Below, piece by piece: positions 2,247-61,860 of a stretch of 61,961 bases of DNA. The position numbers and the translations under genes were made by a program. Numbering within the stretch: position 1 is the stretch's first letter; every line of letters begins with the position of its first letter. The notes below the pieces were generated by a model. The model was not told the DNA's origin. It did no database searches and worked only from the letters and a program-made list of their open reading frames with translations. The stretch spans positions 1 to 61,961 of the forward strand of contig JAULBX010025398.1 of assembly GCA_032358255.1 (NCBI GenBank), in the 5' to 3' direction. The DNA comes from Heterotrichella gracilis (taxonomy: Eukaryota > Sar > Xanthophyceae > Tribonematales > Xanthonemataceae).

Positions 2247-3863
2247 TCACTTGAAAATTCGTCTGCGCTGATGTGGTGTCTGCTGTTGCCCCTTGGCTGG
2301 CTGCTGCAGCCATGCATACCAGACATGGCCGCACATCACAGCTGCAGCTCCAGCAACCTGCGAGTACAATGTGACATACAATCGGTAAGAAATTACAAAG
2401 TTAAGTGCCACTCACGCAATACGCAAGCCCGGCTGTAAAGGCTCACGCTAGGAGCCATCTTGCCATGGCAGAAGCATTTAATCAATGAACCTGGAATGCC
2501 AGGGTGCGTGCAGCAAAAGGGGAAAAATAAAGTCAATTGGGCTGTAAGTGCTCCTACCAAATCTGGACAATAATGTCTCCTGTTAACGATCACCTGTTTG
2601 GTAATTACCTGTTTGGCCAAACATTATATGTGACATCCTATTCTGCCAGAAGGGCCAGTGCGGGTCCACCTGATAACAGGTTTGCAAATTGGAGCACACT
2701 TGCGCAACATTTCAACAATGACTGCAACCACGCGGTGTAAACCACGGTGGGTGTTACTTGCCTGCCAAGCGCCGACACTGGAATCGAAGAACAGCCATCC
2801 CAGCAGAAGCACCAACAGGGTCTTTGAGTGGCCCATTACTGGAAAGGTGGTAGCAGTGAGGAGTTCGAGGCAGCTGTGCATGCTCAAAATTGTTGCCAGG
2901 GAAAGTAAGCAGGTTAGCAATGTTAATCCCAGTCCCGCGGGCGTCCATGAGTACTCCTGCACCCATTGCTGAGCTACAAGGTAACGATCAATGAAGGGTC
3001 CCAGTACCAACAGCATGGTACCCTGAATAGGCGCCGTCAACGCCAAGAACTCTGCTGGATCCACATCGTAGCGCGATTGGATGAAGCGTGCCGAGACATA
3101 ATTCCCGCCTGTGGTGGCAACTGCAAGTGCAGCCACTGTAGTGCTGGCAGCGGTGGCGGCCACATCGTTCACAAAGGCAAGTTTCAAACCACCCATGACC
3201 ATTGCCATGCTGCACAGTGCGGACCAGCTGTATCGCTTCCCAAAGAACACAGCTTCCAAGGTGGCAATGTATGGGATGACAGCCACCTTTGTCAACTCAT
3301 ATATGCCTACCTGCAAGCGTTGGCACATTTTGCAGCATACATTTATATATTTTTGAAGTTATCACAGTAATCATAGCTTCAGCTCATGTCACTTCTTGAC
3401 GGGGTAATAAACCTTCGGTGTAACAGTAATAATAATGTTGATATACCCGCACTGTGGCAACCACACTAAGACAGTCATGGCACGCAGACAAGCAGCATGC
3501 GCAGACGCTGCTGTTTAATTAACATACCGAATTGACGTTGAGGCTGATGTTCATAGCCACAATGGAGGTTGCCGACATGATTGCAAACACCAGCACAAGG
3601 TACATAGGCGGCTTGCTCAATGGCGACACCTCCTTGCTAACAGGCTTGTTTGCATATCGCCGTGTGACGGTGAGGGTGGCTGTTGACACCAGAAATTGCA
3701 GACATGTCAAAGTTGTCACAAAGTTGAATCCAAAGCCCTTTGGTGGCTGGGACATCAGGACTTTGTTGCAGATAATGAGGCAGACTGAGCTGACAACGTT
3801 GGCTGCAAAGGCTGTCACTGCAAAGACAGCACTAGCCCATGCGCTTGGGTCCAGCCTCTGATA
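2247..3863 (-). CDS. TPT / nucleotide-sugar transporter family membrane protein (5' end unresolved)
   Basis: Drug/metabolite-transporter superfamily, triose-phosphate translocator branch; such proteins exchange phosphorylated or nucleotide sugars across Golgi, ER or plastid membranes. Exons: 3528-3863, 2762-3310 and 2247-2357, giving about 331 residues after the first visible acceptor. Seen: the family-typical block YELTKVAVIPYIATLEAVFF at the start of the second exon, many hydrophobic segments, and a last exon with GAAAVMCGHVWYAW, matching the family's final helix. The second intron has a GC donor (AG|GCAAGT at 2761); the downstream acceptor restores the family C-terminus in phase 0. The first exon(s) with the start codon lie upstream of 3863, but none of the candidate donors between 3870 and 4080 closes the frame, so the N-terminus is missing. 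The substrate cannot be told from sequence alone. Confidence 0.85.
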
Positions 3864-10500: not shown

Positions 10501-12035
10501 AGCTCCTGGGCTGGTGAATGGAGCACACCACAGTGTCGCCCTCCTCTGCCAGCTTCTTCAAGGTTTGCATGACCTGCATGGCCACGATAATGATGACGGG
10601 ACCCTAGATTAGGACTACGTAAACACAGGCTTGCCGTGCTGTGCATGGGGATTGTTGCACAGCGACTCATGGTGTCACACTGACTACCGCTGTCATGCAA
10701 TGCTGCTTCCAACCTTCCAAACTGTTAGTTCATAGCTACAAAAATGCTCAAAAAATGAGCAAAATAATAACAGTGACGAAAGGACCAACAGCCTGTGCGC
10801 CATACATCACTGTTTGTCACATGCATTTTACCTTTTCAGCCTGGAATGAGTCCAGCCCAGTCGTGGGCTCATCAGCAAACAGCAGCTTGGGAGCAGCTAT
10901 GAGCTCGCACCCAATGCTCAGCCTTTTCTTCTCTCCACCTGACAGACCCCGCTGCTTCTCATCGCCCACCCTTGTCTCTGCGCTCTTGCTCAGCCCCAGT
11001 GCCTTCATCAGATTCTCAACGTAGGCTTCATTGTTCTCCTGGGACTCATCGGGTTTGCGCAAGCTGGCTTGCATCAGCAGGGTTTCCCTACGCGCAGTGC
11101 ACAAGGTCAACCCGTGCACATGTGGTTGCAAACCATGTTGCAGATGTGGTTGCAAACCATGTTGCAGTTGGGGGCGACATTGGCGTAACCTAATCCATTC
11201 AAGGTTGAAGCAGCCAGCATGCAAGAGCCAGCACTCCAGCCTGCACATCAGCAAGCAAACCGTGTTGTATTTCACTCCTGCACTGTCTGGCTTGATACGT
11301 GGGTGGCGAAGGAGCCACGTCGGGGTTGGATGCATGTCGGTGCAGCATATACCATCCTGTGCCCACCTGACTGAGAGCATGGAGTAGAACAGATCCTCCT
11401 GCTGCACATAGCCCTGGCGGTGCTTTGAGTCGACAGCGAGGACCCCGTTGACCGTGATTTGGCCCTGGAGCTTCAAGCCCTTGGCCTTCGGCAGCTGCCC
11501 CGCCAGGGAGTTCAGCAGAGTGGTTTTGCCCGATCCAGATGGACCCATGAGGGCCAGAAGCCTGCATTGCACAGCCAAAAAATGTTTCCTGCAGGCTGTG
11601 TGATCCAGATGGCCCCAAGAGGGTCAGGTAGGACGCGGTGCAGGCATTTTGTGGCCCGCTAAAGAAGTAGAAGGATGACAGAGGCCTTCTGGCCCGGTGC
11701 GACATGAGCTGTTGCTGGTTTAGCCATGAAAAGCTTCAGTGTTGGCAGTGTAGCCGTGCGCACCTTCCTGGTCGAGCAGCGCCACTGAGGCCTGTGAGGA
11801 TGGTCGTGGTGGTGCCATGCTTGTCAGTGATGCTGCACGTCACATCCTTCCACTCCAAGAGAACGGAGGAGTCAGCAGCAGCTTCCAGTTGTTCATCCGC
11901 TTTCGCCTTGTCAGCTTTCCGGGTGTCCCTGTTCTTCAGCACGCGGTTGATGCCCTTCACTGCAGCTGTTGCAAGCAGGATAGGCAGCTGGTGCTTGGGG
12001 AGCACGATGACCACCGCACCAAGCAGGAAGTCCAT
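7513..12035 (-). CDS. ABC transporter G family, half-size
   Basis: ATP-driven exporter half-molecule (nucleotide-binding domain then membrane domain, the ABCG/WBC order) that works as a dimer in a membrane. Eleven exons: 11764-12035, 11367-11561, 10832-11087, 10395-10573, 9898-9984, 9619-9756, 9287-9431, 8869-9089, 8452-8591, 8017-8177, 7513-7725; all phases agree, giving 668 aa. Visible motifs: Walker A GPSGSGKTT (about residues 97-105), Q-loop GYVQQEDLFY, signature LSGGEKKRLSIG, Walker B LLFADEPTTGLDS and H-loop SIHQPRSS. The exons from about residue 425 encode hydrophobic helices of the ABC2 domain. An in-frame stop immediately precedes the ATG at 12035, which supports this start. Intron 1 holds a degenerate copy of the Walker A segment. 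The N-terminus begins with a hydrophobic stretch. The substrate is unknown; ABCG members move lipids, sterols or hormones. Confidence 0.93.
8585..8681. repeat. 33-bp direct repeat across a splice acceptor of the ABCG gene
   Basis: Positions 8585-8617 and 8649-8681 are identical except for one base (A versus G). On the minus strand, copy one contains the TAG acceptor and first bases of the ninth exon (starting at 8591). Copy two lies just upstream in the intron and carries a CAG acceptor look-alike, whose use would lead quickly to a stop codon. Confidence 0.85.
11531..11630 (-). repeat. Walker A exon segment and its degenerate intronic copy
   Basis: Positions 11531-11560 (the real exon encoding the P-loop) and 11601-11630 (inside intron 1) are closely similar. 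The intronic copy, read on the minus strand, gives LTLLGPSGSHS, against LALMGPSGSGK in the exon. The invariant Gly-Lys of the P-loop is lost in the copy. Confidence 0.8.
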
Positions 12036-12758: not shown

Positions 12759-15700
12759 ATGCAATCGACCTACAGCATGGCCCTGTGTACCACTGTCACT
12801 CCGGGCCTGAACACAGCCAGATGCTTCACACCCACGGTGAGACAGACAGACTGTTCTGTCGTTCGTTAAAAGAACCCAATATTCCGTTTCAAGGTTGGCA
12901 ACCATTTTGAGTGCATGCCAGTATGAACGTGGCATTGACTGTAGTTCCTGCCTGCAGACCACCAGACCGAGACCAACGCTCCGCAAGGCAGCAACTTGTT
13001 CAGGTTCGGCCAGAAACTGAAGGTTTACTTGGTTCATAGTCACTAGTGATGTAGGGTGTTCAGATATGCTCATTTAGAGGGCTACATCCTGCACCCTCAC
13101 CCCCGCCTCACCAACCCCGCACCCCAATCATCTCATAGTCACTAACGGGTGCTGTGTGCACACCAGCGGCTCCTGAGCCCCGCAACTCCAACCGTGGGCT
13201 AGGTGTGCTGGAATGGACTGGTTCTTTGGTTCCCCAAGGCATGCTGGTCAAAGGTACACAACACTTGTTTTACTACTGGCATGCTCGTACTGCACCTGCC
13301 AATGACATGCGCTAATGCGAGCGCGTAGTGTATTCAGCGGTGACCAGAATGTGGTCCTGTCCACTGCAGGCGTCAAGACTGGATGGCGCACTGCCTGGGA
13401 AACCCTCATGCGTGAGCTGGCACCTCAGGACAAGACTGGCGCATACGTTCGGCCCCAGTACGGATTCAGTGGCAAAATTGGCGACGCGCAATTCCCGGTA
13501 AGCAATGCCCTCCTTGCGTCCCACAGCAGGTACCCAGCATCACAGCTGCCGCCTGCCAACCCTCGGACATCCTTCATACACACCACAGCTGGGCGCGTTT
13601 CAGGTATCCTGCGTACACACCATAGCTCGGCGCATTTTGTGACATGGCACCTATTTCCTGAGACTCAAAGCTTTGACATCCTTTCCTCCCCTTTGCACCA
13701 GGCTGCATCAGGGCGATACCACCTGTACGTGGGCAACGCATGCCCCTGGTGCCACCGGGTGCTGCTGGCCCTGGCAGTGAGGGGCCTGTCAAACCACGTA
13801 GGGTTCACACGGGCCGCTGATGACCCGGAGCGGGCCTCCAGGGGCGGGTGGGTGTTTGACACCCCGGAGCCGGTGTTTGGATGTCGGGATCTGAGGTACG
13901 CATGGTCCATGGCAGCACGACCTACCCACGCAAATCCTAGAGGAGCCATTATTATTATCATTACATGCGTCCTAGAGGAGCCATGCGGCGCTCAAATGCC
14001 ATCCAGCTATTCTCCTCAGTCAGTTCCATGACAGTGCATATTACATGCGTCTCATGGCGGTACGCAACTTTTGGCGTGCACTTCATGAGGACAGCCCACC
14101 CGGCAGTGCCATCATTGCCTCCCCTTGCACTATCTCCTACAGCACGGTGCTATATGCTTACAGTAATGAATAAAAGTAGCATCAGCCGACGTAAAATCAG
14201 ACGGCATGTGCTGCACCTCGATCACCTGACTGGAACCGGTTGCAGCAAAATAAAAACTGAGATACTTATTGAGAAGGGATGTTTTTCTGATAAGATTACT
14301 GATGTAAGTTTAAAGTGGCCATAAATATAAATATACAATGCAAATGAATCACATGGCACAACAGGTCCATAAGTTGCCCCGCAGGGAGGTGTACGAGGCA
14401 TGCAGCCCAGGGTACCGCGGCCGCTGCACCGCACCCTTGCTGGTGGACAAAACCACCCGCCGCATCGTGAGCAACGAGAGCAGCCTCATCGTCCGCATGC
14501 TCAATGATCTGCAGCTTCCAGGCACATCCCCAGTGGATCTGCGCCCAGCTGAGCTGCAGGTAATCAGGTTTGAATGCTGGAATGCAATACTGGGTTGGTT
14601 GCTGCAACTAGCAATCATGATGCATGGCTGATGGCTAGGTTGGGTAGTGGGTGCGATCATGCAACATGGTTATTAGTGGCAAGTGGCCCCATTGCTGGGG
14701 GCGTGGGATGCCGTATTGTGCCTTGTTAGCATTGGTCACACAGGCCAGGTTATAGTCAGGCGCGTTATCATTAACATTAACCACATGGCAAACACTATCA
14801 ACCATGGTGATGCTGCTTCCAGTGGACATGCATGCATACATGCACCTGGGGCTAATGCACTCCCCCACCTTTGCATGCAGCCACAAATTGACGCGCTGAA
14901 CGACGTAATCTACAACACCGTCAACAACGGGACCTACAAATCTGGGTTTGCCACCACCCAGCAGGCATATGACACAGCACAGCGCCAGCTGTATGGCACG
15001 CTGGACAGCCTGGAGCTCAGGTTGGGGCAGCACCGCTTCCTGCATGGGGATAGGTGAGTGGGGCAGGGAGGTGCCTTTGTAACATATCCATGTGGCCACC
15101 GCATGGGTTCTCACGGTCGGCCTGCAAGGGGTGTTTGGCAGGAGGCCACAGCCCCTTGCCACACACACACACCCGTCCTTGACACGACCCCCTCCACCCC
15201 ATAAAGTTGCACTCGCCACGCACCTACATGTACGGTGTTTTGCAACAGATACCATTATGCAGCTGTGCGGCACATGCTCTAGCTGCCGACCCTGGGTTCG
15301 TCTCAAAATGTTTTTTTCTTTTTTACATTGCGTTGTTTTAATAGCAACAGAATTGCACCTGCCCCACTTTTCGTGGTCCATTCACTTGACCCCTACACCT
15401 GTCGCCCTCCCCATTTGGCTTCAGTGACCCTATTCATGGGTAGCACCTGCATGTCACGTGACTTTAAAAAACCCCCTTATGATCATCTCCCCGTATCTGC
15501 AGGTTCACCGAGAGTGACCTGTGGCTGTACCCCACCATCATCCGCTTTGACATCGCGTACGCAGTGCTGTTCAAGTGCAGCAAGAAGCGGGTGGCTGACT
15601 ACCCACGCCTGTCTGCCTGGCTCAAGGATGTGCACGCCATCCACATACCTGGCTCATCCCTGCAGGTACGCGGGCATGCTGGTTGTTGTTTTTCGGGTCT

Positions 15701-20061: not shown

Positions 20062-23000
20062 TCACAGCGCGGCCAGCAGGCTGTGCAGCTCCAGGATTGC
20101 CTCCGCCATGCGGCGCCTGTTGAGGTCATCCAGCACGCCCTCAGACTGGCGGAACCACTGCTGGCAAGCGCGCAGCACGCGATGGCGCAGCAGCCTGCGG
20201 GGGCCAAGGTGCACACATGTGAGCTCATGCGGCTGTGCCATGTGGGGGATGACCATGTGGGGGCAAGCAGCACACCAGATTTTGATGATGTGGCCATGGG
20301 GGGGACCTCGTGCGGGGCAAGGGGGGTCAGCGCGTGGGGGCAGTAGCATGTGGGGGCATGGCCCCCAAATGCTACTTGGCACCACAAGGTGATCTCCGTA
20401 TAAAAGATATCTAGAAGGCAAGCCGGCCCCCACATGCGCAAGCCGAGTGTCGCAGAGACCATCGCGTCGAGCCGATCAAGCCAAGGGATGACCCAATGAT
20501 GGCCACACCCATGCACACCACCCCCATCGACACGCATGCACCAAGCACGCGCACGCAGTTACCCATGCAATGTGCAGCATCAATACCCCCTTCCCCCCCC
20601 CGGCCACACCCACCTGAAATGCACCACCACCGCCTCCTCAAACCCTGGTGGCGGCCGCCTGAGCACATCGATCATTGCCCAGCGGATGGTTGCCAGCTGT
20701 ATGTGCGCGGTGTACTGGCTGCTGGCGCTGGTTCCCTCCGCCTTGCCGCGCATGCTATCGGCGTTGGGCTCGTTGAAGTAGGGGTCCGCCACCAGGATGA
20801 GGCTCTGTAAGGGAGGTTGTTTAGGGTTTTGAAATTTGATTTTTGGGTGGCAGATTAGCATTTTTGCAGGCAGGAGCAAGCGGTTCAAATGACATGTACA
20901 TTAAATTATGGAAAACTGTAGATGCACCATCCTCCCCTTGCGCATGTTCTGCCGTCCAGCTTGCCCTACCACCACAGCTGGATTCCTTACCGTGTAAGTA
21001 TACGGTATCTATTCAAGTCTTACAGCCTGGAGTAGACCATAGTCGGAGGTCCTACCAGACCTACCCGACAGACACCCCATGACGCCACCCCCCTCCCTCC
21101 TTCTCACCTGAATCGACACCAGGATCTGGTACACGCTGGAGTCCTCTGAATTCCATTTCTCAGATGCGTCAGTGCCGTGCCACGTGCCCAGCAGCGACAG
21201 GCACACCTTGCCATCGGCGTACAGGTTGGGGTTGAATCGCACCCGCCCCTCCCCCGTGGTGTGCAGCTCGCACAGAGGGGGGTCAAGGGGGTAGCGCTGG
21301 GGGCAGAAGATGTCGAATGCGAAGCAGCCGCCATAGTAGGGCGTGTCCTCGGGCCCTGGGGCAAGGGTACAAAACAATTAAATAAATACAAAACAATGAA
21401 ATACAGACACCCAGTGGTTTTAAAATGGTATAATGTTTGGTATCATCTATTTACAGAGTGCGCGCGGTGTGTGGTTACATGTACAGGTACGCCCCAGTTT
21501 GGATACATCCACCAACGTAGGCCACACCCCATGCACTACTGCCTTTCATGGTGCATGGTGTGTGCCTCACTGCGCTACCTGTGATCAGCGCGCGCATCTT
21601 GTCCACCCTATCCGCGTCATAGCGCAGCAGTATGGCGGCGGCGGCGTGCACCGGCAGCTTGGTCTTGGAGTGCAGGCTGCGGATCTCGCGGCCCAGGCGA
21701 CGGGTGCGGGTGGCGTCCAGGCCCTGTAGCAAGGGGAATATCATTAGTAAAACCATTATGATAGAAATAATATAATATAAAATGTATTTAGGAAAACAAG
21801 GCAATTTTAGAAAACCAAACAATAACCAGACATACATTTAAAAAAGCATAAATGCACGCAAATGCCTGCCATTCACATGTATCACCCATGCCCCTTTATG
21901 CAAGCCCCCTACCCACATGCGCACCTGCACCTCCCCTGCTTTCACCGCGAAGGCCCTGTTGTACGCCCCTGGCACCTCCGAGTCAAACGTGGCCAGCGCC
22001 AGTGGCTCCACTGCCTGCTGGTACTCCTCGTTGCTTGGCTCGGGTGCATCCAGGGTGAGCGCAAGCACTCGGTCAAAGTCCGAGGCTCCTCCAGCTGGCG
22101 TCGAGGGCGAGGCAGTTCCTGGATATGGGTAGCAAGACACTGAGCCAGGGCGCCATGCCATGCAATGGGTGCTGTGCTGTGCTGTGGCATGGCAGGCGGT
22201 GGTGTTGTGATTGCAATTACCGGTAGTAAAGGTCCGCATGCAGCAAGCTACTAGAGTGCGGACTTGCAGCTCTGGGACGCACATTTCCAATCCCCATCCC
22301 ACCTGCCGAGGGATCAGATATCCTCCTCAGCGCACCCCGCACAAGATGATCCCACCTCCGGCCCCATCCCACCCACGCACCCACCTCCGGATCCCATCCC
22401 ACCCCACCCACGCACCTGTCGGGCTCCTGCGCAGCGCCACCATCGCCTCCACCACCCCCCGCAGCCGCTCCACATTGTCATAGTCCCCAATGTGCTTCTC
22501 CTCTAGGGTTTTCACCACCTTGCGCAGCACCCCCTCCTCGAAGTCCTGCTCAGCAGCCAGCGCAGACACAAAGGCAGGGCCTGCCGCTAGACGCACCAGG
22601 AGGTCTGCCATGTCCCCCAGCAGCTTGTTGGGATCGTAGCGGTACTTCTCGGGGTTGCTGACCTGCGGGAGGGAGGGCGGTGCGGTGAGGCTCAGGCTGT
22701 GACGGGCTGGGTGTAGCCTGTCATCTCTCCAGATGTGTGGGCATCCAACAGGTGTTGAATATCCAGTGTAGTATCAAGTCTTTGTGCAGGCTATGCAGAA
22801 TTATCATACTGGTCCTTGTTGCTTGGCTGCCTCCACTCCTATTACAAACGTATAATCACACTGCAGCACACTGCTGGGGCAACAAGGGACATCAAAAGCA
22901 TAAGATCACGGCTGGGTGACGGCTGCGCGGAAGCTGATCATTCTTTCCAGACAGCCCAAACACCCATTCCTCTCACCCCACCGACTGTTCCCCACCCACC

Positions 23001-26000
23001 TGCAGCGCCCCTCCCTTGGGCCCCACCAGCACCTCCAGGAAGTTGAGCGTGGCGTACGCGGCCTGCGCCACGATTGGCTGCTGCTGGAACGCGCGCTGTA
23101 TGGCGGGGTTGCGCGTGAGCGTGTTGAGCAGCGCCAGCGTGTGGTTGGCCATGGACATGTAGCCCTTGGCGGTGTGCTCCTGGCCCTCCAGGAACTGCTG
23201 CGTCTGCTCGCGCTCCCTGCGGGTGGGGAGTGGACGGTGGATGAGGGAGGGGTGGATAGAGGACTTGGTTATGAATGGGGAGCGCATGGGTGGGGGCGGT
23301 GCAAGAGTGTCGAGGGTGGTGCAGGCAGGAGGTGCATGATGGCGAGGCAGCAACGACAACCCAAGAAGAAATTTGATTTTTGTTTTAATGCCACAGTAGA
23401 GCATGAGACGGCATCCCAAGCCTCAGTCCCAGAGCTTCAAAGATAAAACTAGGTGACATCTGCAAAAAGAAGGGATGGAATTACAGACTACGTGTATACA
23501 CAACATGGAAATAGACAGGCTTAGGTTACACCACTCCACCTCCCACTATCCCCCTTCCGCCAACCCTGCCTCTCCTACACCACCGCCCCCACCCACCTGG
23601 GAGGCAGCGCCTTCCAGCCCGCCTCGTCCGCCTGCGCGCGCTCCACCGCACAGATGTCCTCCAGCCTGCCCAGCGAGTCGCGCAGCAGGTAGGTCAGGTC
23701 ATTGAGCACGGCGCGCAGGTAGTCCGAGAACACGCTGTCGCTGCTGGTGGCCAGCGCTGCGCCCACCACCTGCTGCAGGCTGGCGCCGCACTGCGGGTCC
23801 TTCCACAGCTCCATGAGGAGGAGATCGATGGAGTGCCTGCAGAGATTGGGACGTGATTTGATAACATCTATTGGATTGTGATTTATATACTAGGAGCTCC
23901 ATGAGGAGGTTGATGGAATGCAAGGTGATTAGGCCTCACAACACAACAGGAGGTCGATGGAGTGCCTGGTGATGATGGAGTAGGTGAGTGATCCGCACAA
24001 CAAAAACATCGCTGCAGCTTAACTAACCTATGCAGCTGTGAGAAGCAACAGATTCCAGGAATCACACGGGACGTGCACGAAGGAGGCACATGACAAACCA
24101 CAAAACCCTTTACAAAGCTTCACCTGAGCGATTCACAATCCCAGCCATCCCTGCAAGGGTCCCCAGCTCACCTCATTGAGAACTTGTCAAACCTGTCCCG
24201 GTCCACATCCAGCCCCTCCACATGGTCTGCTGAGGCATATGCCCGCATGAGCGCAGGCACTAGGTCCCGCTGCGCTGACCCTGTGGGAAGAATACCCTTT
24301 CATTACCCTGTTTTGCAGCAAGGTCGCCACGAAATTTCCTCCCAGCACAAATGCGCGTATGGGTGCAAAAGGGTGCAAGAACATGCTGGAGAGGACAAAA
24401 TAACATAATTGACAAATTGTATAAAACAAGTTCATCTTAACGTTTCCAACCAGAGCTCTGCTTTATTCATTCTAACTGTCTGGGAAGATTCTCAAATTGC
24501 CATACCGGCAGAAAATGTGCGCATGGGTGCAATAGGGTGCAACAACATTGCTAGAAAGGAGTTTAATGTAGAAAACAATGAAAAGGCACAGTTCGTAAAA
24601 CAACCAGATCTGCATTTCCAAGAAATACTACTGCTTTATTCAATACTCTTTCTGGGTTTGTTTCCTGATTGCCGTACCTGTGGACAGCACCGTTGCCACC
24701 AGTGCCTTCTCCTCAGCCGACTCCATGTCAGGCCCCAGCGCCGCCCGCCTGTACTTGTGGCTGGACAGCAGCGGCGCCAGCATGTTGGTCAGCACCTCAA
24801 CCAGCTGTGGACAACGCCATGTTAGTCAGTTAGTAATAGGACAAGCTGGTTGTCCAACTAATTGCTCACATCCATTCCAATACGTTGTGGGTTAAGGTAC
24901 GTGTGGGTTGACCTGATTTACTACATTCTGCCTCAGCTTTCCCCAATCCCAGGGCTTGAACAGCACCGATAGGGTTGTCAGTGCATTAGCACATTCTCCC
25001 TGGTGCCCCATGACTGCTGCCTGCAGAGCCTTATGCTGTTCAACGACGTCTGCCACACCATTACCCCCTCACCTTGTTGAGCACCAGTGGGCTTGAGACC
25101 AGGCGGGGGCTTTGCAGCATGACAGTGATTGCAGCCATGAGCAGGTGCAGGGGGATGCTGAGCATGTAGCTGGCGCGCCGCATTCGCATCACAAAGCACA
25201 GCCAGGAGGCCATGTCCCGCACCACAAACTGCAGGAAGGGGACAACATGGTTGGTGGCTGGTGGTCGGTCCAACATGGGCTTTGAAGGGTGTAGCATGGC
25301 CCTGAGGATGGGCAGGTTGGTGGCGCTGTGGCACTTGGAGCAGCAGTGGCATATGGTGAACAAACAGGGTGTGATCCACATTACCTTGTGTGCAACCGTG
25401 TACGGCCCTCAAGCCTCAGGCCATTTCAAGGGGGAAACATTGACAGGGGGAAGTGCACTTCAGAAATGCCGGCATGCATGTGCATGGCTGACTGCAAAAT
25501 CGGCTGAGTTGCTAGACTGCAGGCAAATACATACCTAACAAAGACCATGCTGAACATGCATTTCATACTCAAATAAATCTGAAGTGCCTGACCTCTGGTG
25601 TGCTCCTGAACGCTGCCAGGGCCGCGTCCCCAACCTTTTTGGAGTAGCTCACCAGCCACGAGGCCTCCAGTACTGCAAAGCGGATAGCAGTGATGGCAAG
25701 CTCCTGCTCCATCAGCTGCGCCATGCTCAAATCGTGGAACAGCTGCACATCCAGCGGCAGCTGCCTGCCAGTCGGTTTGTGGGCCTTGAACAGCATCTCG
25801 AAGCTCGATGCGTATCGGTTGCTTGCGGGGACGAGGCCGGTGCGGATGATGCGCTGAGTGATGAAGAAGCACTCGGAGACGAAGTGGGGGACAGCGTCAG
25901 GTGCCCGATCAGGTGCTAGATACGGGTAGCTGGTGCTGGGGCTGTCACTGGTTTCTGCTTTCCCTGCCAGAGTTGGCTCAGTTGCCACAGCAGGGAACCT

Positions 26001-28954
26001 GTGGGCCTGGGCCACATAGAAGTCTGGGTCCAGCCTCAGCATGAACTTGTCCTCCCCTGCACGGCAGTGAATAAGATGGTTACAGTACTAGTGCAAGACT
26101 TGCTTTTCACAACTCTCTTCGACACACATTCAGGGAGCCAACCTGAGCTCACTTGACTTTTCTATATAGTTTTGCACATTTATGATTCCAAAACTTGGAA
26201 ATTTCCAGATTTACTGCATGAATATATCCAGTGATAGATAATGACAAGCAATTGTGTGCACTATAATCTTTGGCAGGGCAAGCACAGTGTCCTAGTGCAC
26301 GCAATCGCTTGATGAATGGTAAGCATCACAGGACCATTGGCTACAACCTGCACTCGTCAACAGTGGGCAGTCAAGCACATCAACTGTCCCTGCACCCATG
26401 CACACAGACCCTAGCCAAGACCAGGACTGTACCTGACAGGAAGGGCTTGCAGAACAAGAGGCAGACTGAAGTCACACCCAGCATGAACGAGTCGCTCGAA
26501 CCTTTCGCAAATGCCTGCACAGACCACAGGGGCGCTCATGCCGAGCTTGATGCATACGATTATTTAAAATAAGGTCAATGCATCAGTAAATTTGACATGG
26601 GATTGGGAGTCATGCTAGCTTTGAACCTGACCTGCATCTGAAAGGTGTTTGTCTGCTCCCCAGCTTGCGCCCTGCACTCATTGACTCCCGCAACTGCTGA
26701 CAGCCATGCCAGCAGGGCCTCCTGGCACACACCCTTCTGCTTGGCAAGCTGCTTGCAAATGCCATGCGCAGCACCGTACACCACCTGCGAGGCCAGTCAC
26801 CAATCAGTCCAGGGCTTGTGATTAAAGCAAATATCAAAATGCTCCTTTCCACGGCAGTAATCACTACACATGATCCGATGTGCCAGCAAAGATGTGCTTG
26901 GCGCCGCATGGGCAAGACTGACTGCTAATCTGGCTGTATTGCTGGAATGCTTGTGCTAACTATGATCCCAACATGGCTGCCAGACAGTAGACGAGATCAA
27001 AATATCTTGAATGATGCAAAGGTCAGCAATCGCACCTGCAGCTTGTGACTGATATCCATCATGCACATGTCAATGTCCCGAGTGACTGAGGGATAGCCCC
27101 TGAGGCTTGTGAAGATGTCCTTGCTGCTGGAGACAACTGTTCCACCAGGCCCAATGGTTGGCATGGTCCCAATGCCCAGCAACGGCGCCAAGATGCTGTC
27201 TTTTTCAAACTTCTGTCCAGTCATCTTTGGGTTCTCCGCAGCCTTCTGGACTTCCCGCAGCAACACCGCTGTCAGCACCTTGGCCATGGATGCAGACTGC
27301 AACAGAATCTGTGGAAGCGACAGCTTCTGCTGGATCTGCGGCAAATCCATGTTGAGGCGGACGTCCTTCAGTGTCGCCAGAGCGTTCCTCAGCACGCCCT
27401 CCCAAAGAGTTGCTTCTTCAGCAGTTGATGTCTGCTCAACACAGGCCTGCAGCAGTAGGGTAGCATTACCAGCTGGTGATGAATGCAGTTGCTTCTATGA
27501 ACATCCACCACACAGTCCACACCAATACTTTTGCAGCGAACAAGTAATGGGTTCCACCGCAAAAAAACTAAGGATACATTACCTGAGCTGTCTCGTTGGC
27601 TTGAGTAACACAAAATGGTACCAGCAATACCGGGACAGTGTGACTGGTGCTTGCAGGTGCATGCGGCAACTGCTAATCTTGCTATTACTACCATAATCCC
27701 CCTCACATATCCAGAAACCAAACCCAGTGCCCCATTTGCCATGGTTGCCCATACAGGTAATGTGATCCTTGCAGGTAATGCGGTCTCACCTCAAGGAAAT
27801 CACACCCAATGCGCCTGGCCACCAGGTTGTCCATCAGCTTCTTCTGCTGCACCCCCCCCTCAAAGTACAGGTCATCCTCCTGATCATTCACCAGGGTCTT
27901 CAGTGCCTTGGCCGCCAAATGCTGCTGCAACAGCCTCAGGCCCTGCTGCACCACCTGCGCAGCTGCCCCCTGCTGCCCCTGCTGTGCACGCGCCCAGCAG
28001 TCATACAGCACCTCTATCGCAGCCAGTCGATGCGGCAACCTGCTTGGCTGCAGCAGCTGGAGCACCATCTTGTCAGCATCAGCTAATGCCAAGGTTTTGG
28101 CATCCCCAGCGCTTGCAAGGCTGACTGAGATGCTGCCAGCAGCTGCAGACCCTGTCAGAGACACCGCCACGCCCAGCGCGTGTTGGAGAGCAGATGCCAG
28201 CTGTGCTTCGTCTTGTGACTGTACGACGACTGATGCAGGCGGTGGATTGCTTGTGCTGTACCAGTGCTTCGCACCCTTGACCCACTTGGGGCGCAGAGAT
28301 TTGGTAGCTGCTGGTGGTGCAGCCGCAGCTTGGTCCTGGCTACGAGCTTGCGGCTGTGCGACTGGTGCTGGTGGGGCTGGTTGAGGCACCGCTGCTTGTG
28401 GTGGTACTGCTGCTTGTGTTGCGTGTGATTGTGGTGCTGCCAGCTGTGCTTGTTGACCCATGGCTGCAGCCAGCGCCTGTTGGAGCCAAATCTGCGTCGG
28501 GTCAAGCTGCTGAGGGCCAGAGGTGGAAGGCCCAGAGGCGGGCTGTGCCGGTTGTGCAACACTGGCAGGAGGTTGAGTTGGCATAGGAGCTGCTGCAGCA
28601 CTAGGGGAGGGTGCTGCATTGTTCTGTAGCAGTGAAGCCAGTGGCCCAGGTGAAAACAGTGCAGCAAAAGGGTTGTCTGGCTGCTGGTCTGGCTGGCTCC
28701 AGGTGGGTTGCACAGCAGCTGGCTGAGCAGTAGAAAGCTGTGGCCCTGCTGGAGGATCCACGTCCATGTTTTCCTGTGAACCAGGAAGAAAACCTGGGTT
28801 TAAACTTCTAGGCTTCCTACTGGGTTTGAGCAGCGTGCACTGACAAGCACCCATGTGCCCGCTATTGGCCTCATCCTACCTGCAAGCTAGCCTGTATAGC
28901 TGCTTCTATTTGCATCTGTTCCAGATAGTCCATCTCATCCATATCTTCGTCCAT
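20062..28954 (-). CDS. Ubiquitin E4 (Ufd2-type) core fused to a BIRC6-type E2 (UBC) domain
   Basis: Predicted ubiquitin chain-elongation factor and conjugating enzyme in one chain. Exons: 28880-28954, 27790-28773, 27036-27446, 26632-26784, 26433-26514, 25593-26056, 25073-25228, 24678-24804, 24172-24280, 23597-23836, 23000-23216, 22416-22662, 21925-22118, 21579-21723, 21108-21355, 20614-20804, 20062-20194; every phase agrees, 1391 aa. Order: acidic UIM-like start with EAAIQASLQ (1-25); Ala/Gln/Pro-rich linker (26 to about 220); Ufd2 core (about 330-1090), with [76 protein letters not shown] and [20 protein letters not shown]; then UBC (about 1155-1391) with [20 protein letters not shown] (catalytic Cys about 1253, codon 21201-21203), [20 protein letters not shown] and a C-terminal helix. 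The U-box expected after the core is absent. The UBC resembles BIRC6/UBE2O-type E2s. Confidence 0.9.
23807..23970 (-). repeat. Exon 10 start of the E4-E2 gene with two degenerate intronic copies
   Basis: The real sequence at 23807-23842 (encoding [10 protein letters not shown] after the acceptor) has imperfect copies at 23893-23924 (readable as HSINLLMEL) and 23946-23970. Both copies sit in intron 9, upstream of the exon on the coding strand. Confidence 0.75.
24340..24685. repeat. Diverged tandem duplication in intron 8 of the E4-E2 gene
   Basis: The segment at about 24350-24405 (core GGGTGCAAAAGGGTGCAA) recurs at about 24512-24566. The segment at 24453-24500 (CTGCTTTATTCA followed by AATTGCCATACC) recurs at 24628-24680, where it forms the donor end of exon 8. 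Unit length is about 165 bp, so the intron grew by duplicating the exon 8 donor side plus intron. Confidence 0.7.
26898..26960 (+). repeat. LINE 3'-end fragment (5'-truncated copy)
   Basis: Shares the string GACTGACTGCTAATCTGGCT and the TGCTGGAATGCTTGT tail with the copy at the right end of the window (opposite orientation). Its 5' flank, GGCGCCGCATG, aligns with the end of the reverse-transcriptase relic at 58820. It lies in intron 3 of the E4-E2 gene. Confidence 0.65.
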
Positions 28955-32580: not shown

Positions 32581-33264
32581 TGCCATAGGCACCAGGATGG
32601 GACGGAGCTTGAGGCAGGGGGGAGATGGTCAGCGAGCTTTCCATCATGACCAGTATGGGGTAGTACAGCATGAACGTGCACCATGGGGCAGGCAGTCAAT
32701 TGCTAGGTCACCAACGCAGTCAATTTGGACAGGCAGGTGTTTACATACGACGTAACATATCAGTTTTTGCATGCTCTCCTCAGCAGGTGCATTGCAGCAG
32801 TTAAATATATTAAGATTTTGCACACCGAGTTGAAAAGGAGAACACACCAAAGGTTATGACCATCATGGTGCTGTGCTGCTGTTTACCGTCCCTATGATCC
32901 CAAGCTTTTGGGGCAACGTTGTTATGGCTGGGATTGTTTTGCCGTTGGCTGGGATTGGTTAAAATAACCTGAAACCAACTGTTTTTGGCTTTGGAACATG
33001 GTCAAATTCCTGCCATGATCAGTCAAAGCTTGTATAACAAGTAGTTGCGAGGAGTAGCTGGCCCTATTTTATGTACGGCATACATGCGGTTCCCAGAGTG
33101 CGCAACGTTGACGCATTCCTTTGCATGCATGCATTCCATTGCATGCGTTCCCTAGCATGTGCCACCAACAACCATAAAAGAAACGGACGGTCTAGACAGT
33201 GTAGAGTTTCGTAATAGGCATACGTGAATTAAATTGCCACAATCTCAGCTTCCTACCTGGCACT
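32581..33264. other. Intergenic between FabD and the next plus-strand gene
   Basis: Should contain the FabD 3' UTR and the next promoter. No coding frame is recognised. TGCATGCA occurs at 33122-33129, about 140 bases before the next start codon. Confidence 0.45.
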
Positions 33265-35016
33265 ATGTCGCACCCAAGGAACCAGGCTACCCTGAACAAG
33301 GAAAACTTTGCTGAAATTGGCAACCAAATCTGCTTTGGAAGCCTCGATGGTTTTCCAACACTGGAAGAGGCGGCAAAGATCTCTCGCCACGCCTCCACGA
33401 GAACCTCCCTTCGCCCCAAGAGGTTGACCGTGCAAGCCACTGCAGTGCCAACCAAGGCCTCGCATTCAACCAAAACTGCCAGTACTTTCAACGAGCAACA
33501 CCCCCGAGACACCTGGAGCATATTCAGTGACCCTGGAGTGCACTCACACAGTAGCACTACAGCTCTCAACCTCCAACCCCTATCCAGCGACATGATACGA
33601 TGGGTGGTGCAACTGGAGAACTTTGCCTTCCGATGGGAAGCCCTGGTCGAGCTTGCAAGTTCAATGCAGCAGGATATGTCACCACCTGCCTTCTGCCAAT
33701 CACTATGGAGACTGGAAATTGTGCCCACTGTCCTCCTCCAAACACTCACCCTTGGATACCGTGTTGTTGCCTCAGAGGGCTGCTCACCTGCTGACTATGA
33801 CCTGCTGTCAAGTGTGTTCTCTCTGCTGCAACACCTTGCTTGCCACGAGGCAGATAGCATGCTACAAGGCAAGTGCCGTTTGGCCATATCTGTTTGCTTC
33901 ATGTGTGTTGCAACCTGAACTGAATGTCGTCTTGTGGGGTGCTACAGCCAAGGTGCACGAGTACTGCTACCCCTACTTGATAGAAAACAAGAACAGCAAC
34001 AGCAATGAAGCTGAGATGTTGCGGGTGCATAGCTTGTGCCTCTTGCTGGCCTTGTTGAAGGTGGGGACGTACCTTGATTTCTACAGTCTGAATTCCACAA
34101 GCGCAGCTGCTTGCAATGCACCTTGCTCCAGTGCGCTACACTATGCCGTTGCACCGCAGTCTGCTGCAGTGTGCTTCTAACTCGTGATTGTGAGGCGCAG
34201 GCAAGCCCAGCAGATGCAACTGCTGCCATTGTCACCCACGATGGTCTGGTAGACTTGTTTACCACAGTTTTGTCGCCTGGCACATCAGATCTCTCGCGGT
34301 GGATGGGCCTTGTCCTGCTCAACAGGCTGACCACTAGATTAAACCTGGTATGACTGCGTGGGTCCACTTTTTGTTATTTTCTCCCTGTTGGACCTGTATA
34401 AAATCTATCATACACATTGCAATGTCGCCATTGCAAGGACAACTCGCCGCCAGTCTCTGCAAAATCAGTGTGCCAAATTTTGCAGTGCCAGCAAGTCGAT
34501 GTCAACGGTCCAAGTGCAGTTACAAGATTTGCCAGGCTTATGGTTCCTGTGGAGCGCTTGCTGATGGGCTTCTCTCAGCTAGATTCCCACACACTAGCTG
34601 TGCACCACGTTCACATATTCAACTGTCTGTTCGAGTTCTGTACACTGTTGGCCAACAGTCCTCTCCTCCCCAGCTTCATATCCGCTCGCTTGGCAAACGT
34701 GACCACCTTCCTGTCGGCCAAGCCCCTGCTTCTGAGACTGTTCACGTGTGAGACTGCCAGGTAACCCCGCCTGGTCTTGCTGCAACTGAAGTGTTGACTC
34801 ATGCGTGGTCCATAGTGCAGCATGTGTTTACCACCTGCTCAATTTGCAACAAGCCTCACATACCCCTTCCACAACCGCAGGAAACTGATGCGCACGTTGC
34901 AGAAACTGGGCTTGGATGCTGAATTGCAAGATTTCAAGTGTGCACTGAGCACAGTGCTGCTAACGGGGCTGGGTCCAGACTTGGGCGCTGCACAGAACGT
35001 TCTGGCTTCTGAGTGA
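33265..35016 (+). CDS. Unrecognised Leu-rich helical protein
   Basis: I do not recognise the family. Exons: 33265-33868, 33948-34060, 34201-34347, about 34486-34760, 34881-35016; 424 aa with phases closing. The first about 100 residues are polar, Ser/Thr-rich and probably disordered. The rest is a run of amphipathic Leu-rich helices (for example VHSLCLLLALLK, RWMGLVLLNRLTTRL, FISARLANVTTFLSAK), which suggests an alpha-solenoid (ARM/HEAT-like) fold, but no repeat consensus is clear. No signal peptide or membrane segment. Intron 1 is short (79 bases) with a GC donor (AG|GCAAGT at 33869); reading a nearby GT instead gives an early stop. The acceptor of exon 4 could be six bases later. It ends 171 bases from the convergent CNOT9 gene. 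Confidence 0.6.
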
Positions 35017-60596: not shown

Positions 60597-61860
60597 ATGG
60601 GCATCAATTCCAATCGACCCCTTCATGCCTTTGTGCTCACATCAAAGTCAGGGTCTGCTGCCGTAATTGAAGCGGTCGGCTATGTGTGGCCGGCCAAATG
60701 TCCCACCAGTGCACTTGCCTGCCTGGTGGTACTCCTCTCAATTGCTGGAGCGGGAGCAGACAGGGAACCCATTATTACTCCAGTGAGTTGCAGCTATGGT
60801 GACACCTCGCAGTTTTTGCAATGGCTGCCTGACGATCCTCGCACTGCAAAGCTTGGTCGCTGCATCCCAGATGTGTGCGGTGGCACAATCCTCAGCCAAC
60901 TTGCGGATGCGTCAGGCGACATGCCGGTCTCGTTTGCCTGCCGCTACCAGCTCTATGATACTGCGCAAGCACTCCAATGCCTGCGGGGAAAGCAGGTGCT
61001 GTTTCTTGGCGACTCATCCATGACCGAGACAGTGCACGACATGACTGTGCTGCTGAGCGGAGTGGCATCAGACCCTTTGCAACAACTTGCTGAAGAACAT
61101 CACTCACATCAAGGGTGACCGTGTTACGCAAATTGTTCCCATCACACACAATGAAGGGCTGGATGGGGCACAGCTTTTGGTCGAGTTCTACGGCAACCAC
61201 AGGCGAATGCGCGTCAGTTTGTCTGAGGAGGACACCTTGTTGTGGCACCGCTTCATTGGGCACCCAAATGTCCTTGCAAACAACTATGGCATCCGCACGC
61301 TGATTGACAAAGATGTGCTTCCAGAACTGGCATGCATGTTTGGGCAAGTGCCGGGGTGCTGGCGGACACCGGATTTTGTGGTCATTAACTCGGGTCTGCA
61401 TGACGTCAATCATGGACCATCAGTGGCGCCAGAGACGTACCGGGAGTGGGTGCAGCAAGTGGCAGCCCAGGTGGCAAACTGGACTGCAGGCAGGGTGGGC
61501 GTAGTGTGGAAGAGTAACGTCATAGTGCCAGAGCACCTGGTGCCAGACCACCACTTGCCTGGTCTCCGTTTGCTGCGACAGTATGACCAGGTTGTGTCAG
61601 AGGTAGTAGGCCAGTTTGGGTTCAAGTTTGTGAATATTTCAGAGGTGTACTCAGTGATGGATGAACTGGGACAATTAGAGAATGGGACTACCGATTTCCT
61701 GCACTTTGGTGCAATTGCCAAATACCGCGACATCAACAAGCACGTTGCTGTGTCAACAATGATCACCCAAATGCTATTGAACACGCTGTGTACATGGAAG
61801 GACACATATGACTGTACTTCGGGGTGCGGCGCTGCCAGTGGCATGCATCACAAACGTTGA
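60597..61860 (+). CDS. PC-esterase / SGNH-type (NXPE- or TBL-like) protein with a frameshift
   Basis: SGNH-fold esterase/acyltransferase family, whose relatives O-acetylate glycans in the secretory path. Frame A runs 60597-61118; frame B is open from about 61057 to the stop at 61858-61860. Family blocks lie on both sides: nucleophile motif VLFLGDSSMTETVHDM in frame A; and VVINSGLHDVNHG (Asn block) and TTDFLHFG (Asp-His block) in frame B. Joining needs a one-base change between 61057 and 61118; no intron of workable size with GT and AG fits there. An N-terminal hydrophobic stretch (LACLVVLLSIAGAGA, about residues 41-55) suggests a signal anchor. Either the gene is a young pseudogene or the assembly has an indel. 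No intron was seen, unlike the neighbours, which may point to a retrocopy. Confidence 0.75.

Follow-up and report, generated by a model that had tools for sequence, protein, structure and literature searches.

Ubiquitin chain elongation (E4) factors of the Ufd2 type use a separate ubiquitin-conjugating enzyme (E2), which is recruited by a C-terminal U-box, and bind Cdc48/p97 and the UBL of Rad23/Dsk2. BIRC6 includes a BIR domain and a giant scaffold. To our knowledge, hybrids of an E2 and a ubiquitin ligase (E3) of the BIRC6/UBE2O type are few, and UBE2O has no Ufd2 core. The Protein Data Bank (PDB) names BIRC6 a dual E2/E3 and UBE2O an E3-independent E2. The subject of this analysis is a gene of the xanthophyte alga Heterotrichella gracilis, found in contig JAULBX010025398.1 (61,961 nucleotides; referred to below as the window or C290) of a 68.5-Mb assembly with 903 contigs, whose predicted product joins a Ufd2 body to a BIRC6-type ubiquitin-conjugating (UBC) domain. 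Like Ufd2, UBE4A, and UBE4B, this protein has the N-terminal domain and armadillo-like core, as judged from Pfam and profile comparison and from the fold of a relative, but it carries a predicted catalytic UBC in the place of the U-box and falls on the opposite side of a tree built from the core. It resembles BIRC6 in its type of UBC with a catalytic Cys, but a Ufd2 body stands in place of the BIR domain (by Pfam) and the giant scaffold. UBE2O comes next in similarity of the UBC but differs in its N-terminal part.

Rebuilt from the raw genomic sequence, the gene runs on the minus strand from 28954 to 20062 and comprises 17 exons, which encode a 1391-residue product with no internal stops; all 16 introns have a GT donor and an AG acceptor, and the exon phases fit. 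These features agree with an initial annotation of the window, made from the sequence alone, which had described 17 exons with consistent phases, coding sequence in the junction exons 22416–22662, 21925–22118, and 21579–21723, and a single gene in which the Ufd2 body leads directly to a BIRC6-type UBC. A protein search with residues 400 to 1391 as the query returned 1166 matches, and in 62 of the best 120, which are the ones listed, precomputed Pfam assignments include both Ufd2P_core and UQ_con, the co-occurrence that the annotation had proposed looking for. Because the same domain pair recurs in these homologues, chance joining is excluded, and the reading as two neighboring genes was rejected.

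The E4–E2 fusion gene is thus confirmed, at the level of sequence, as real and intact. What weighs on the other side is that the intron positions were set by sequence reading and a script on genomic DNA rather than on cDNA of H. gracilis, so that two adjacent genes, or an assembly or gene-model artefact, might have been misjoined at 21925–22662. Apart from the shared domain pair, that possibility is countered by fusions in single reading frames on barely longer contigs (P0003, 1004 residues in 3270 bases; P0037, 1194 residues in 3742 bases), by fusions with transcript-assembly record names (P0035, P0053, P0063, and P0051), and by the separate core and UBC trees, which place both parts of the window protein with the same fusion proteins; we regard its probability as negligible. 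The exons, all on the minus strand, are as follows, with the supporting evidence in parentheses.

28880..28954, minus strand: exon 1, residues 1–25; start codon, acidic N terminus, and most of a UIM-like motif (gene model, relaxed motif)
27790..28773, minus strand: exon 2, residues 26–353; Pro/Ala/Gln-rich linker, then Ufd2 N-terminal domain from about residue 213 (gene model, profile comparison)
27036..27446, minus strand: exon 3, residues 354–490; end of Ufd2 N-terminal domain, Ufd2P_core begins at residue 439 (gene model, Pfam, profile comparison)
26632..26784, minus strand: exon 4, Ufd2 core (gene model, Pfam, core-model genome match)
26433..26514, minus strand: exon 5, Ufd2 core (gene model, Pfam, core-model genome match)
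25593..26056, minus strand: exon 6, Ufd2 core (gene model, Pfam, core-model genome match)
25073..25228, minus strand: exon 7, Ufd2 core (gene model, Pfam)
24678..24804, minus strand: exon 8, Ufd2 core (gene model, Pfam)
24172..24280, minus strand: exon 9, Ufd2 core with a 13-residue stretch almost invariant across the aligned fusions (gene model, Pfam, alignment)
23597..23836, minus strand: exon 10, Ufd2 core (gene model, Pfam, core-model genome match)
23000..23216, minus strand: exon 11, Ufd2 core (gene model, Pfam, core-model genome match)
22416..22662, minus strand: exon 12, residues 1007–1088; C-terminal end of Ufd2 core (residue 1078) and start of linker (gene model, Pfam, core-model genome match)
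21925..22118, minus strand: exon 13, residues 1089–1153; linker and pre-UBC segment, past the end of the yeast Ufd2 match in the models of relatives (gene model, relatives' structures)
21579..21723, minus strand: exon 14, residues 1154–1201; UBC begins at residue 1156 (gene model, PDB match)
21108..21355, minus strand: exon 15, catalytic part of UBC including a 20-residue stretch; codon of the predicted active-site Cys1253 at 21203-21201 (gene model, Pfam, PDB match, motif)
20614..20804, minus strand: exon 16, C-terminal half of UBC (gene model, PDB match)
20062..20194, minus strand: exon 17, C-terminal part of the BIRC6-type UBC and stop codon (gene model, PDB match)

In the window protein, Ufd2P_core spans residues 439–1078 (306 bits versus a cut-off of 20.4; E = 5.9e-91) and UQ_con spans residues 1189–1301 (74.8 bits versus a cut-off of 27; E = 6.5e-21). 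Besides these two, a scan of the full-length sequence against Pfam at E <= 1 gave only UEV, with no U-box, no BIR domain, and none of the N-terminal conserved regions of UBE2O. Sequence searches of solved structures matched the core to yeast Ufd2 (E = 2e-26) and the UBC most closely to BIRC6 (PDB 3ceg; E = 8.4e-69, 235.8 bits), followed by UBE2O (130.1 bits) and then UBE2Z. When a profile of green fusions was compared with one of ordinary Ufd2, residues ~213–438 matched the ordinary Ufd2 N-terminal domain (E = 2e-6), and therefore more than the Ufd2 core has been kept. The 12-residue catalytic motif of the UBC begins at residue 1242, which makes Cys1253 the predicted catalytic cysteine. The weak, below-cut-off Pfam match to UEV (E = 6e-4) could be taken to mean that this UBC is a dead, UEV-like E2 that merely docks ubiquitin or another E2, but the catalytic Cys is aligned in 51 of 52 fusions (the exception being P0022, in which the motif is unrecognizable), and all 52 have the P and the second N of NPN. 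In view of the conserved Cys, the dead-E2 reading was rejected and is considered very improbable.

For two relatives, the AlphaFold models can be matched to yeast Ufd2 as far as roughly the U-box and, beyond that, to the UBC of BIRC6; in the full-length relative P0037 the fold covers Ufd2 positions -3 to 879. Judging by the sequences and these two predicted structures, the fusion retains the Ufd2 body, made up of the N-terminal domain and the armadillo-like core, and the U-box is replaced by a complete C-terminal BIRC6-type UBC.

The fusion is accompanied in the same genome by more conventional proteins. The 12 genome matches to the Ufd2 core model are confined to contigs C290 and C95. On C95, two U-box pieces (84440–84514 and 84036–84200) come after the core, and the translation shows the usual Ufd2 ending; none of the 49 U-box genome matches listed is on C290. 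Another BIRC6-like UBC is found on contig C548 (29647–31335) and is nearest to UBC-only green proteins in the UBC tree; the contig stops at 32340, leaving only about 1 kb upstream of this gene, so that the 5' part would lie outside it, and the whole-genome search with the core model gave no match on C548. The fusion thus coexists in this alga with a U-box Ufd2 and with a further BIRC6-like UBC. The separate U-box Ufd2, with both halves of the U-box, for which the initial annotation had proposed a check, is present, and this bears on its view that merging with an E2 made a U-box unnecessary: that may hold for the fusion protein itself but not for the cell.

Among the matches listed, the fusion is found in the green algae Myrmecia bisecta, Trebouxia, Elliptochloris, Bryopsis, Scenedesmus, and Sanguina, as well as in record Ulvmu1, which we take to be from Ulva; in the animals Branchiostoma (two records), Haliotis cracherodii, and Liolophura sinensis; and in the haptophyte Chrysochromulina tobinii and the pelagophyte Chrysophaeum taylorii. 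The records are labeled hypothetical, uncharacterized, or domain-containing, except that one haptophyte record says BIRC6. A profile search from four fusions (best 120 of 129 matches) gave 15 proteins with both domains, 6 of them new, and a search with the U-box Ufd2 from C95 found a U-box in all of the best 120 of 190 matches. Myrmecia, Elliptochloris, Bryopsis, and Branchiostoma lanceolatum each show one fusion and one U-box Ufd2 among the matches listed. No vertebrate, fungal, or land-plant Ufd2 among those matches has a UBC, and nearly all of them show a U-box; bird P0255 and gecko P0278 do not.

The two architectures are sharply separated. A U-box profile built from 12 sequences and applied at E < 1e-3 matched none of the 69 fusions, the window protein included, versus 221 of 224 ordinary Ufd2/UBE4 proteins, none of which had a UBC match. 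The three ordinary Ufd2 proteins without a U-box profile match (P0255, P0278, and P0338) also lack the domain in precomputed Pfam assignments. Three core records without a UBC (P0052, P0247, and P0248) match fusions best among the matches listed, which counts against so clean a division; all three stop short, P0247 within the pre-UBC segment, and for this reason they are read as truncated. The ufd-2 of the snail Biomphalaria glabrata (BGLB026024-PA, 938 residues) is described in a passage of PMC6548493 as having Ufd2P_core and no U-box, with annotation suggested as the cause; it could be a piece of a molluscan fusion.

Two side observations concern UBCs of the BIRC6-like class. P0066, P0067, P0068, P0070, P0071, and P0080 combine such a UBC with PF00622 (SPRY), and in the UBC tree they fall within a single group. 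P0111, the record of which is named as an archaeal metagenome-assembled genome (MAG), has a UBC of the same class and may represent contamination or an archaeal E2.

The core tree (65 rows and 672 columns, cut to core columns) was obtained by a quick search with support from the Shimodaira-Hasegawa-like approximate likelihood ratio test (SH-aLRT) only and is unrooted. Its rows are 31 fusion-clade proteins (29 of the 69 fusions plus the core-only P0247 and P0248) and 34 proteins hand-picked from 224 of the U-box family, among which P0338, with no detectable U-box, was counted for its UBE4B likeness; no UBE4A is named among the rows, and some rows are long-branched. A single branch with SH-aLRT support of 100 splits the fusion-clade proteins from the U-box family, and within the U-box side the grouping of green, fungal, and animal sequences is the expected one. 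Forcing green fusions together with green U-box proteins cost 169 log units (approximately unbiased [AU] test, p = 2.6e-44), and the corresponding animal pairing cost 176 log units (AU p = 1.3e-58); for rows such as P0012, P0017, and P0023 (green) and P0031, P0036, P0315, P0323, and P0338 (animal), and for several UBC-only rows in the AU tests of the UBC tree, the lineage used was taken from tree placement. In this core phylogeny, the fusions make up a second Ufd2 branch, apart from the U-box Ufd2s of the green and animal lineages alike, and from the unrooted tree we infer that the two branches parted before the green and animal lineages did. The core tree and AU tests led us to reject an independent origin in this alga. 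The statement in the initial annotation that this alga has merged E4 and E2 was accordingly not borne out, given the split with support of 100 and the presence of the fusion in chlorophytes, lancelets, molluscs, a haptophyte, and a pelagophyte.

The UBC domain gives a less decisive picture. In an unrooted tree of 113 rows, likewise from a quick search with SH-aLRT only, which includes 53 of 63 fusions (10 fragments or near copies were dropped), the fusion UBCs form one clan with SH-aLRT support of 87. In a second unrooted tree of the same kind, of 87 rows (44 of 63 fusions and 42 of 57 UBC-only proteins plus the C548 protein), the fusion UBCs need two changes, and the AU test tolerates the grouping of green fusions with green UBC-only proteins (p = 0.10) and of animal fusions with animal BIRC6-type proteins (p = 0.16). 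Because the UBC tree is weaker, the old split was read from the core tree alone. Together with the patchy spread among named taxa and the lack of any listed vertebrate, fungal, or land-plant Ufd2 with a UBC, this indecision leaves some room for several independent fusions, or for transfers of the fused gene between distant lineages, instead of one ancient origin with many losses. Such a history is contradicted by the fully supported split in the core tree, with the U-box lineages grouped as expected, and by the rejection of both the green and the animal pairing, and we regard it as distinctly unlikely.

A viral source and a prokaryotic source were also rejected. Viral contigs gave 46 pattern matches and no relatives by tblastn, and in bacteria three MAG loci (L015, L016, and L017) match just the UBC end of the query and are probably eukaryotic contamination. 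A fold search of viral models returned giant-virus E2s, such as Moumouvirus M1PWN8 (TM by target, 0.91), some of the E2 records being long. Some of the giant-virus models in BFVD, which include M1PWN8, E3T4W8, and A0A7D3QVW2, match the UBC and are named E2, while others match the Ufd2 body and are named U-box or E4; Ufd2-like U-box proteins were seen in Fadolivirus and LCMiAC02. No model clearly having both parts was seen in the fold search table, which gives no match ranges.

The ends of the fusion proteins differ among lineages. Using a strict pattern for the ubiquitin-interacting motif (UIM), we found matches in 26 of 68 fusions versus 1.25 expected from shuffles (2 of the matches lie inside the core, and several come from near copies), in none of 224 U-box Ufd2 proteins (6.3 expected), and in 1 of 57 UBC-only proteins (1.15 expected). 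Where named green-algal records contain the strict UIM, it lies at the N terminus; in P0053 and P0063 it lies at the C terminus. Segments of P0002, P0005, and P0053 score above the Pfam cut-off for UIM, and P0049 starts with UBA_4. In the window protein, a UIM-like motif at residues 16-26 (I..A...S..E) fits a relaxed pattern and is suggestive only. The six animal-type fusions (P0027, P0028, P0031, P0032, P0034, and P0036, from lancelet, mollusc, and two kin) have no strict UIM match. Hydropathy is above the threshold near the N terminus in four of them (P0027, P0031, P0032, and P0036) and at residues 59–123 in all but P0031, which suggests a membrane-anchored form with a predicted leader and a single membrane span. 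P0032, P0034, and P0036 also show EF-hand-like loops, which score below Pfam cut-offs.

In passages of PMC5303827, the N-terminal domain of yeast Ufd2 is described as binding ubiquitin chains and Rad23, its loops, far from the U-box, as binding the chains of the substrate, and the passage of ubiquitin across that distance is posed in the Discussion as an open problem. The fusion is probably, though with moderate confidence, a self-charging E4 that would work beside the ordinary U-box Ufd2 of the same cell. E1 would charge Cys1253; the Ufd2 body, aided in some members by UIM or UBA motifs, would hold an already ubiquitinated substrate; and the tethered E2 would extend the chain in cis without a RING or U-box, much as E2s of the BIRC6/UBE2O class are described as acting with no separate E3. 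Such a protein could recognize the chain with one end and add to it with the other, with E1 as the only further enzyme needed.

Three observations detract from the self-charging E4 reading. Chain extension, as opposed to priming of fresh substrates, is deduced only from the Ufd2 body and the ubiquitin-binding motifs; the strict UIM pattern has no match in 42 of the 68 fusions, a number that includes fragments; and the UIM-like motif of the window protein fails the strict acid filter and scores 12.2 bits versus a cut-off of 21 for UIM_2 in Pfam. The fusion might instead be an E3-independent E2, an E2/E3 hybrid like UBE2O or BIRC6, that acts on its own clients, with the Ufd2 body serving as a client scaffold only and no specialization for chains. 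The closeness of the UBC to those of BIRC6 and UBE2O, the scarcity of strict UIMs, and the six animal-type members with a hydrophobic N terminus and/or membrane span would suit this alternative, but the body is retained together with the N-terminal domain that in yeast binds chains and Rad23 (PMC5303827), and several members have UIM or UBA motifs; we consider it somewhat unlikely. Extending the self-charging E4 reading to the whole family, we tentatively propose, as a possibility that we hold with some reserve, a one-polypeptide E2–E4 class that may date to the last eukaryotic common ancestor. Its members would be self-charging, would lengthen or branch chains without RING, U-box, or HECT domains in parallel to U-box Ufd2, and would have been retargeted by lineage, through UIM/UBA ends in algae and protists and through a hydrophobic leader and membrane span in lancelets and molluscs, which would place a chain-extending E2 at a membrane, for instance that of the endoplasmic reticulum.

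Elsewhere in the window, a reading frame at 10820-11623 (minus strand) has an ABC-transporter ATPase domain (PF00005; E = 2e-21). Weak matches below Pfam cut-offs, each perhaps an exon of an ordinary gene, were seen to triose-phosphate transporter at 2627-3358 (minus strand), glutathione S-transferase at 13306-14028 (plus strand), Rcd1 at 33205-33915 (plus strand), and GDSL lipase at 61057-61857 (plus strand).

A published description of a Ufd2 core joined to a UBC was not found in our literature search, the scope of which left out preprints and most subscription papers, and in passages of PMC6548493, PMC10974829, and PMC5542650 the Ufd2 core is treated within U-box families only. Apparently, then, this is an old second branch of the Ufd2 family for which we found no published study. 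The domain pair is visible in database records under no family name that we saw, and we think that its old and wide spread would surprise specialists. The fusion family would mark the U-box as an exchangeable module of the Ufd2 scaffold, would offer a single-chain system for studying how ubiquitin reaches a substrate site distant from the E2, and would enlarge the known E2 repertoires of algae, lancelets, and molluscs by one enzyme.
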